DNA of 64,000 nt from Corallium rubrum. Taxonomy: Eukaryota > Cnidaria > Anthozoa > Scleralcyonacea > Coralliidae. Below the pieces are notes generated by a model that saw only the letters and a list, made by a program, of their open reading frames with translations, had not been told where the DNA came from and did not search any database. A program made the translations under genes and the position numbers. The DNA is taken from the NCBI GenBank assembly GCA_964035015.1, contig OZ035997.1, forward strand, positions 60,328,285-60,392,284, written 5' to 3'. Positions 41,641 through 48,740 of the stretch are shown piece by piece. Within the stretch, counting starts at the first letter, position 1, and each line of letters starts with the position of its first letter.

Positions 41641-41856
41641 TTAAAGTGCTTATGTCACAAAATTTTTTTTTGACTTTTGAGTAGAGGACAAAAAGTTAGT
41701 TAATAGGTTCTTTAACATTTTTCGATTTTCTCTTTTCATTCGCGAGATATGCGGCTCTAAACCTTGAAAAATTGGCTTTTAGCAAAAAATTGTCGCGCCC
41801 GAGAGAAAAACGGAAAAGGGTCTGGGGCGACAGCCGTGTGACGTAGCTTAAGGGAC
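41641..41856 (+). repeat. Left terminal inverted repeat of the Kolobok-type transposon
   Basis: Pairs with 48546-48740. The outer TTAA is the target duplication; the repeat proper starts AGTGCTTATGTCAC. The promoter of the transposase is likely in or just inside this region, because its ATG is at 41913. Confidence 0.9.
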
Positions 41857-41912
41857 GGAGGTTCGAATTCACATGTGAAGGAGTACTAAAAAGCTATTGA
41901 GAAGACAGCAAA

Positions 41913-44900
41913 ATGCCGGATAGATGTGTCGTTTTTTGTTGCTCAAACCAAGCAAACGCAGAGAGAGGGATCTCTCTTCATCGCATTCCATTCTGGAACG
42001 ATGAGCGCCCTGAAGCAAAGCGAAGGAGAAAGATATGGATGAACTTTGTCGCGACAAAGCGTGCGAAATGGACGCTATCAAAATTCTCCGCTGTATGTTC
42101 CGAGCATTTTACTCCGGAGTATTACGAGAAATACCTTGTTGAGATACCTGGAACAAGAGACTATACGCCTCGGTTAAAGAAGGACGAAACAGGTATAGTT
42201 GTCTATCCAAGCAAATTCACAAGAAGCAATCTTGCAGACGAAGTCTCCCCTCGTGACAAGTGTCAGGTATGTTTATATATTTGTTTATAATATTTGTCAT
42301 TTGATAATTTTGATCACGTCATTCGCGTGCATTGTGTCGGTAAATGTCGGTATAAATATAAACTAGTTTGTCTTGATTGTATTTATAAGTTTGCGTCTCT
42401 TTTATTGGTTAGGCGAGAAAGAAAGTCAAAATAAGTCTGGCTGAAGCATCTTCGTCGTATGAAGATAAAATCGAGGATGATGTCGAGTCGAAAGACGACA
42501 CAGATGTGATGTCATCTGATGATATAATTGCTATTGAAACGACCAGTATGCATGTCGATGATCCTAAAAATATAACATCCCCTTCGTTCGGCCAGGTATG
42601 GCTTTGTTTATAAAGTGTAAACTATAAATCATGCTAGTACTTGCTAACCAAGAATCCAAGTCCTATTAAGATATGCAATATGATTTACAAATTACAATTA
42701 TACTTTCAGAAGTTTGTTGACAGTGAAACCCAGACAGAGGAATGTGCGGGATGCAAATGTCTGTCCACAAAAAACAAAAGGCTGAGGAGCAGTTTGAAGA
42801 CGGAAAAGTTTAAATTGAAAAAAGAAAGATTTGCACAATTTAAGAGACTGATCAAGGTATGTAATATTGTCAAACTATAATTTTCTTGAGCCCAACTTTA
42901 CCCTCCAAGGACATAAATAACCTCATGTTATCCGTGGAATAGTGGTTGGATAAAATAGCAAAATAACATGCTGGTAAACTCACATGCCCTCCACATCTGT
43001 TTAGACGATACCAACGAGAACTGCCCGGAACCTTGCCCGGAACCTTGCCAAGATCCACATGATGAAGTCATGCATTTATCCGACAATGATATGGACACAG
43101 ATGATGACTATATGATGGAAGAAGATGGCAGCGTGGATTTGTCTGATGACAGTGATGATGATATTGGTGAAGATGGAGAAGATGAAATATTGCATTCAGT
43201 GAAAAGGTATGGTATATTTTGTGTAGATTTGTCTGTGATTTAATCAGAATTTATCCCTCTATCACACTTATGGGAGAGATATGAGAGGTTGACAAATGCT
43301 GCATTGCAATTCTAATGATCCCTTAAAACCTGCATTGATCAGCACAGATAATACTGTATGAATTGAATATGGTGCTTACCACCATAAAAATGCACATTGT
43401 TAGCACAATGCAAGCCTACAATTAACTAATTAGTAATATAGGTTTATATGGAATTTTTCTTTTATCTAGAGAGGATATTACAGACAATATCCGCCAACAG
43501 CCGAAATTTGTTGTGTTCCTCACACAGTTACTGTTACTGTTCAAGACTTGCTTCTTTTGCCGCCATGAAAGTGGGCCTTTGCTGAAAGTGTCACAAGTCG
43601 GAACAATGGTAACAATAACTGCCAGCTGCCAAAACCCAGAGTGTAAGAAAGACTTTGTCTGGAAAAGTCAGCAACTAATGCCAAGGACAAAAATTTATGC
43701 AGGAAATTTCCTGTTATCCTTTGCTATCTTGGTAGCTGGATCATCAGCAAGCAAAGTTTTGCAAGTTATGAAGCACATGGGACTTGCTTGCATTTCATTG
43801 TCTACATATTTTAGACATCAACGAGTAAGTATCATTAAAAACACTGAAATGCACAAATACATTTCTTGATAGGAGGGTGTTGATGGGGTGTATTGTGATT
43901 GCTCATTTTTGGTTACCGTCAGTCGCGAAAACACTAAAAATTTTACCGTGAAGCGTGAGTAAAAAATTACTGTCTACGTTTCAGAACATTTTTCAGCAGA
44001 TCAAAGATTTACCGTTAAAATACCAAAATATTTACGGTTTACTGATTATGTTTTTGATGTTACTCTGAGTGTATATCCCCCCCCCCCCCCCTCCCATCTA
44101 GACCCTCTGATAGGTGAATATATTTGAAAATATAAATTATTAAAGCAGGTATAATATGTAAAGACATAATATAGTTGTTTATTATAGAAAGTCCTATTGC
44201 CTTCAATCCATTTACATTGGAAGGAATACCAAACGAAAATTGTGAACCAGGCTAAAGAAGCTGGCTCTTTGGTTTTGGCAGGAGACGGTTGGCATGACAG
44301 TATGGGACATTGTGCAAAATATTGTGCATATACAATATTCAGCTGCACCACGTCCATCATTATTCACTTTTCCCTAGTACAGGTAAATGAAAAGTACTGT
44401 AATATATCTCAATACTTTCCAGCCAGTTAATTATAGGATTGGTTGCATGAATCCATTTCATGTATATATGTGAGTAAGACTATGTGTTGGTTATGTAGTG
44501 ATGTTCTTCTATTCCCCGATATTGAACACGCCTTCTTCTACTTATAGCGAAATGAAGCAGGTAGCAGCCCAGCAATGGAATATTTGGCATTCCAAAACTG
44601 TATGGGATTCTTGTCGGGATGTCAACTTGTGATGTCAACATTCATTTCTGACAGACATGGTTCCATCAGCAAACACATGAAGACAAAGTTGGCTAATGTT
44701 ATACATTACTTTGATTTGTGGCATCTGAAAAAGAGTAAGTGGTGTGCCAAGATAATGAATAGACGGTGTACAAATATGATGGGGTCAGACTAAATGAACT
44801 CAATATCTAAATATACACTCTTTTTCAGAGATAACAAAAGTACTGACCAAAGTGTCAAAGGAAGGTGGGTGCGAAGGAGTGACAGAGTGGATAACGCCTT

Positions 44901-47588: not shown

Positions 47589-48501
47589 GCCGTCTCGTCG
47601 TCAAAACCTTTAAATTGTTCCTTTTCATCATTGAATGTTGATCTGATTGCATTATATGCACATGCTGGTAAGGCTCTCCTTTCATCACCCAAGTATCCAT
47701 GTACCATGAAGATAAACTCTCGGTAGGCAACACTGCGTAAAAACCTAAGAAATAAACGAGCTCGTTCAATCGTTCGTATTAAATAAACGTGATTACAAAT
47801 AAACAAACACTGTAGCTTGAAACAAGAACACATACGTTTGCTCTGAACCAGTCTGTTTATATCTTCTTTGATCGCGTGTCTTGTATTTTCTCGCGAGGTT
47901 TCTTAGAGCCCATTTTTCCAAACAAATAGGTCTGAATCCTGGGTGTAGAGTGATACAGCATGGCGGCTGTGGCACATCTTCTAAAACCAAGTTGTCCTTC
48001 AGAACTTCCCTACAAGATTCCATCTCCTGACAGCACCAAGCTTCGTGTGTATTTTGTATATGTGTTATCACACAATGGCCACATTTACACCTGTGAAATA
48101 AGATACAGGTGATGGAAGTGGACTGATGCCGTATCAAAAATGTATCAGCCAGAGATACTTATTTTACGTTAAAATGTTAAAATAAATCTATGTTTATGCT
48201 CACCATGATTTACTATCTTCAAGGCCGTCTAATCTTCGCTGTAGCATCTCGTTTTGTTGCTTGTGTTCCGCTGATTTTTTTAGATATTGCGCGTACCATT
48301 CTTCGCCCGCTAGCGGTTCATCGGCATAAGGGCATGCATCATAATCGCCTAAAATTTCGCTATCAATTCTGCTTCTAGAGTTCCAATTTCATGACTGGTA
48401 TCATTTCATTCATCCTCTATAATATATCCAGGAATATAATTGTCTTCTGAGTCGCATTGAGAACTACGAGTGCTTTCCGAATCCGAGCTACTGCCTGACA
48501 T
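47585..48501 (-). CDS. P2X7-type C-terminal ballast-domain protein carried by the transposon (3 exons, damaged exon 1)
   Basis: Minus-strand exons: about 48501-48204, 48090-47836, 47744-47585, with good donors (CATG|GTGAGC, CAAAC|GTATGT) and acceptors (TTTCACAG, TTTCTTAG); phases agree (2/1, 2/1). Exon 2 encodes CKCGHCV...WCCQEME...CCITLHPGFRPICLEKW, the Cys/His pattern of the zinc-binding ballast domain at the C-terminus of vertebrate P2X7 receptors. Exon 3 adds LRSVAYREFIFMVHGYLG and ALPACAYNAIRSTF, the helix and closing Cys-region of the same domain. There are no P2X transmembrane segments, so this is the stand-alone form. Exon 1 has a Ser/Asp-rich start (MSGSSSDSESTRSS) and, in another frame, an acidic then coiled-coil-like stretch (KQQNEMLQRRLDGLED). 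A TGA at 48408-48406 and a frame change lie between them. Role in the transposon unknown. Confidence 0.75.
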
Positions 48502-48545
48502 GCTGGAAAATATACCAAATGTATAATGCGCGTCGAAATTAATAA

Positions 48546-48740
48546 GGCCCTTAAGCTACGTCACACCACGCTCGTCCCAGACTCTTGTTGATACGCGACA
48601 TTTTCACGAAAATTGCTGTTTAGAGCCGCATATCTCGCGAATGAAAAGAGAAAACCGAAAAATGTTAAAGGACCTATTAACTAACTTTTTGTACTCTACT
48701 CAAAAGTTAAAAAAAATTTTTTGTGACATAAGCACTTTAA
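48546..48740 (-). repeat. Right terminal inverted repeat of the Kolobok-type transposon
   Basis: Reverse complement of the left end, with TTAA at 48737-48740. It lies about 45 bases upstream of the ATG of the ballast gene, so each gene starts just inside one terminal repeat. Confidence 0.9.

Follow-up and report, generated by a model that had tools for sequence, protein, structure and literature searches.

An element with two convergent genes in the Corallium rubrum genome

We analyzed a window of 64,000 nucleotides from Corallium rubrum (assembly GCA_964035015.1, contig OZ035997.1, positions 60,328,285 to 60,392,284 of the forward strand), in which positions 41641-48740 form a single 7.1-kb DNA transposon carrying a transposase gene and, on the opposite strand, a gene for a relative of the ballast domain of P2X7. 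TTAA target-site duplications can be read directly on the left (41641..41644) and on the right (48737..48740). Self-comparison delimited a left terminal inverted repeat (TIR) at 41641..41854 on the plus strand, which has the tip TTAA-AGTGCTTATGTCAC and is repeated across the genome, and a right TIR at 48548..48740 on the minus strand, so that both inverted ends open with AGTGCTTATGTCAC. Complementarity amounts to 95% between the outer arms (41659-41762 and 48618-48721), 87% between the tips (41641-41678 and 48703-48740) and 85% in an inner stretch (41816-41854 and 48548-48586). An earlier note on this DNA had described inverted ends of ~200 bp with TTAA on each side, and this description holds, the repeats being imperfect. 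The two genes converge, each beginning just within one TIR (41913-46861 on the plus strand, 48501-47585 on the minus strand); their 12 and three exons, respectively, were modelled by hand with GT/AG borders.

The plus-strand gene encodes a THAP-bearing DDE transposase. Its exon 1 (41913..42266) matches the THAP domain (PF05485, 44.4 bits against a cut-off of 23.9), and is followed by exon 2 (42413..42595, an open frame with AG/GT borders), exon 3 (42710..42856), an acidic exon 4 (43005..43206) and exon 5 (43470..43824). Alignment places the first catalytic Asp in exon 6 (GDGWHDS, 44188..44382), the second in exon 7 (SDRH, 44548..44734) together with DLWH, which represents the C/DxxH signature, and the catalytic Glu in exon 9 (CLEGFHS, 45356..45527). 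Exon 8 (44829..45080) contributes the zinc-finger-like residues CxxH...CxH, and the sequence alignment shows both halves conserved between DLWH and the catalytic Glu, the interval where Kolobok transposases have a zinc finger. Exons 10 (46156..46304), 11 (46410..46607, also a profile match) and 12 (46737..46861, with the stop codon) complete the gene, one intron of which holds a GATA tetranucleotide array of repeat family D1 (45644..45883, ends approximate).

Joined, exons 4-9 match the Mutator-like transposase family PF20700 (32.2 bits against a cut-off of 26.5), while exon 5 alone reached 16.9 bits in Pfam and exons 6, 7 and 8, searched singly against Pfam, gave no match. All four motifs align with 12 relatives, of which those bearing a species name are cnidarian, and the D-D-E triad was assigned by position in this alignment; the first motif reads GDGRHDS in nine of the 12 relatives compared to GDGWHDS in the window copy.

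The minus-strand gene encodes a ballast-domain protein, which we refer to as KolX after its published counterpart. Exon 1 (48204..48501) specifies an acidic N-terminus, exon 2 (47836..48090) the cysteine region CKCGHC...CC...CCITLHPGF...C, and exon 3 (47585..47744) the end of the ballast domain (LPACAY...IRSTF...GF) and the stop codon. The joined exons match Pfam P2RX7_C (PF20478, the P2X7 intracellular or ballast domain) scoring 39.8 bits where the cut-off is 23.5, bearing out the proposal of the earlier note that this three-exon gene encodes a ballast domain. Exon 3 alone scored 23 bits, slightly below the cut-off, and exon 2 alone had no Pfam match. PF20478 was matched by 33 of 35 KolX relatives, and the Pfam search of KolX and these 35 relatives found no domain besides P2RX7_C.

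The KolX cysteines align with residues 467-593 of P2X7 and follow its zinc-coordinating pattern; across the 35 aligned relatives, one or two cysteines occupy the LPxC site. When the structure of a sea-anemone relative was modelled on the 35-sequence alignment, P2X7 was the sole well-scoring structural match. A first fold model based on 10 sequences was too poor (pLDDT 49) and was discarded. PDB searches were not significant with KolX as a single sequence (best E 0.3) or with a 5-sequence KolX profile (E 0.074).

The closest relatives of both the transposase and the KolX protein carry cnidarian names. The KolX family also takes in proteins of coral and lancelet annotated as "P2X purinoceptor 7-like" (P0135 and P0199). 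Such names may mislead, and flanking transposase sequence and TIRs should be checked before receptor biology is inferred from them.

As read, the window copy is non-functional: exon 9 has an in-frame stop after the catalytic Glu, exon 4 clashes in phase with exon 3, and KolX exon 1 is frame-broken, lacking a single open frame. The 12-exon, THAP/DDE-like gene that the earlier note had described on the plus strand stands; the decay of the copy had escaped it.

The ends of the element bound a mobile unit

We searched the 474-Mb genome with pieces of the element and scored 40 of 299 candidates for its end, 150 of 181 for KolX exon 2, 150 of 218 for transposase exon 5 and 40 of 42 for an 880-base internal stretch. 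No second coding copy of the window family was found among the scored candidates. Apart from the window copy itself (100%), the 880-base stretch matched relatives at no more than 79% identity when queried at full length, short pieces reaching 83%; the next best matches after self were 63% identical for KolX exon 2 and 64% identical for transposase exon 5. The first 200 bases, in turn, were matched in full at 40 places, the window copy included, with the opposite end lying within about 470 bp at 29 of these 40 (69 matches in all).

Seven further copies were read, namely five miniature inverted-repeat transposable elements (MITEs) of 452-463 bp between their TTAAs, one 1258-bp derivative and a locus termed L003. 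TTAA is present at both ends in six of the seven, the exception being L003, which lacks the right tip; L003 tracks the element to 41992, retaining ~28 codons of exon 1, and then resumes near the right end. The five MITEs and the 1258-bp derivative depart from the window copy at about 41899-41903 and rejoin it at 48536, outside both genes, and the flanks of these six copies differ. The two ends therefore delimit a single mobile unit. The high identity of the MITEs and the 1258-bp derivative to the window copy (98.1-98.9% in the left part, 92.9-97.6% in the right part) suggests that short derivatives moved recently. The window copy being non-functional as read, the transposase that moved them must have come from elsewhere or from an earlier time. 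The earlier note had held that copies without the minus-strand gene would count against a two-gene element; this applies only trivially, in that the copies read that are without KolX (L002-L008) are also without the transposase body.

KolX and transposase genes recur as a convergent pair

Among the scored candidates, 110 KolX matches merged into 109 loci and 150 exon 5 matches into 144 transposase loci. At 68 of the 109 KolX loci, a transposase match on the opposite strand lay no more than 12 kb downstream, compared to a mean of 0.19 and a maximum of 3 such convergent pairs expected by chance (uniform random placement, 2000 trials). Two KolX loci had a transposase match in a different arrangement and 39 had none within 12 kb, such that 68 of the 70 KolX loci with a nearby transposase have it on the same side and in the same relative orientation. 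Most of the 68 pairs were separated by 1.6 to 5.1 kb.

Nineteen of the 39 unpaired KolX hits, picked non-randomly, were re-read, and 17 of them adjoin transposase sequence, including five with C-terminal pieces only (one hit in L042 and two each in L047 and L048); L036 and L040 showed no transposase sequence on re-reading. In the 3.2-kb loci, a transposase C-terminus converged on KolX in 24 of 29, compared to none when 16 pieces of the window served as controls, and among 14 longer loci (L039-L052) we read five TTAA/TIR elements that carry the two genes (L039, L041, L046, L050 and L052). An internal sequence downstream of KolX, TTAAAGGGCTTAT (in L039, L040, L041, L049 and L050), was considered as a possible terminus of an element with KolX alone and rejected, as homology between copies crosses it.

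Copies within a family are near-identical and do not represent independent events, but the loci compared form at least ten diverged families. Across ten families, KolX distances agreed with those of transposase exon 11 (Mantel r 0.79, p 1.5e-4), and the correlation held within the eight closer families alone (r 0.59, p 0.008). The two genes also occur twice under neighbouring locus tags in the sea anemone Actinostola (008383/008384 and 012090/012091). Taken together, these data support the view of the earlier note that the ballast gene travels with the transposon and is not a chance capture; the further two-gene copies that it had called for are present, and the two genes have diverged in step.

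KolX exon 2 has evolved under purifying selection, with a median dN/dS of 0.11 over the 34 pairs, out of 435, whose dS lay in the range 0.05-1.5, although 23 of these 34 have dS above 1.1, near saturation. By this measure, KolX appears to be maintained because its protein has a function.

The element resembles KolX-bearing Koloboks

Kojima and Bao (2022, PMC9587614) characterize Koloboks by 5'-RR termini and by a DDE transposase with a C/DxxH signature between the second D and the E, and they report that Koloboks of the Kol0 lineage, which occurs in cnidarians, encode KolX as a second protein, whose fold is that of the P2X7 ballast domain. THAP domains are usual in Kolobok transposases (PMC6004289). 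The window element begins with AGTGC and ends with GCACT, in keeping with 5'-RR ... YY-3'; its 4-bp TTAA duplication recurs in six of the seven further copies; its transposase has the THAP domain and C/DxxH in the expected place; and the Pfam match of KolX, shared by 33 of 35 relatives, and the fold modelled for a relative point to the second protein. Very probably, the element belongs to the KolX-bearing (Kol0) Koloboks as a decayed copy of autonomous type, an assignment that draws on the ballast-domain KolX, TTAA, ends and motifs.

Like the type element of Kol0, Kolobok-1_XT (PMC9587614), the window family combines a TTAA target, 5'-RR ends, a DDE domain with C/DxxH and a ballast-fold KolX. 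It differs in that its AGTGCTTATGTCAC ends and its MITEs are its own and in that the one coding copy found is decayed. The Xenopus XKol transposases (PMC6004289) likewise have THAP, DDE and H2CH motifs, AG ends, TTAA and MITE satellites; however, they were taken from the longest open reading frames, while the window gene has 12 exons, and the main text of that paper has no match for "kolx", "p2x" or "nanor". Unlike the P2X7 ballast domain and the ZCD proteins (PTHR36981, PMC7016195), KolX is without a channel part and is encoded inside a transposon.

That Koloboks encode a ballast-fold KolX and that this protein is linked to P2X7 is already published: according to PMC9587614, ballast proteins reported from diverse animals are parts of Koloboks, P2X7 is proposed to have arisen by fusion with KolX, and P2X7 and probably Nanor derive from it. 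Much of this the earlier note had reached independently from the sequence alone, and its suggestion that Koloboks spread the ballast domain before P2X7 arose is likewise found in PMC9587614. Our analysis adds one family, together with its MITEs, and shows quantitatively for one genome that KolX is paired with the transposase, the passages compared of PMC9587614 giving no per-genome count of KolX loci. Our results lend independent, genome-wide support to the published kinship of the P2X7 ballast domain with a transposon accessory protein.

By analogy with known families, the THAP finger would bind the TIRs, and the DDE domain would excise the element and insert it into TTAA. KolX, which is small and cysteine-rich with an acidic N-terminus, would be a conserved accessory protein in this life cycle and would most likely serve, structurally or in regulation, the transpososome or the interface with the host. 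This role is our best guess, as the Pfam search found no other domain in the protein and the fold is of the zinc-cysteine type. A genome with about 109 KolX loci would be good material for the question of KolX function.

Alternative accounts of the ballast gene

Some observations weigh against a ballast gene that has simply moved with its transposase. According to PMC7016195, ballast genes show synteny across animals, which is not readily reconciled with a purely mobile history. Within the C. rubrum genome, no KolX match lies within 12 kb of 73 of the 144 merged transposase loci, some of which form groups with equal scores; this could be explained by diverged KolX, deletions or KolX-free lineages. 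Finally, palindromes in L047 (3255-6184, contig C12) and L048 (4024-6751, contig C56) carry KolX in both arms and almost no transposase; they are TTAA-flanked, their inverted arm pieces are 93-100% identical, and their transposase content is a remnant of exon 11 only.

One alternative concerns where the gene came from and not what the element is. An ancestral Kolobok may have captured an old ballast gene of its host once, with P2X7 taking its domain from the host gene and not from the transposon, and the linkage of ballast genes to two markers in sponge, molluscs, arthropods and echinoderms (PMC7016195) favors such a course. However, the 68 paired loci and 17 of the 19 re-read ones place ballast genes with Kolobok transposase sequence, and the about 109 ballast loci of C. 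rubrum contrast with the fewer than ten per species given by PMC7016195, whose main text contains no word beginning with "transpos". We regard the host-first origin as a minority possibility, albeit the most credible of the alternatives. Among the residues that contact GDP, the same paper reports conservation of R546 and R578 only across the animals that it compared.

The KolX-less transposase loci and the palindromes would also be expected if KolX were a passenger or parasite gene without a role in Kolobok movement, an account that concerns its role and not what the element is. The low dN/dS of exon 2 and the uniform side and orientation of KolX beside its transposase argue against this, and we consider it improbable. 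Slightly less probable still is that KolX has mobile elements of its own, L047 and L048 being KolX-amplifying non-autonomous elements; if true, elements of this type would be a direct route for scattering the ballast gene without transposase, so that it could become fused to a host gene, for instance that of a P2X channel.

A one-off capture of a host ballast gene by this single copy, to which the single coding copy of the window family among the scored matches and the 63% and 64% identities of the nearest relatives might point, is next to impossible given that the convergent pair recurs across diverged families with congruent divergence. The element is just as implausible as a piggyBac transposon, which shares the TTAA duplication, since its AGTGC termini differ from the CC[C/T]T terminal hallmark of piggyBac (PMC2872659) and its transposase bears THAP and matches PF20700. 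That paper, on coral TTAA MITEs, was also considered as an account of this element and rejected, as it concerns piggyBac-type ends.

Other features of the window

Outside the transposon, an 883-residue open frame at 911-3562 on the plus strand resembles the reverse transcriptase of non-LTR retrotransposons, with YADD recognized by eye. Three tRNA-like matches (Rfam RF00005) fall on both strands within 1.2 kb (7413-8582); two of them lie, by eye, in a repeated unit, and they are possibly tRNA-derived repeats. Long repetitive open frames at 14006-15657 and 37579-38284 appear by eye to consist of tandem repeats.
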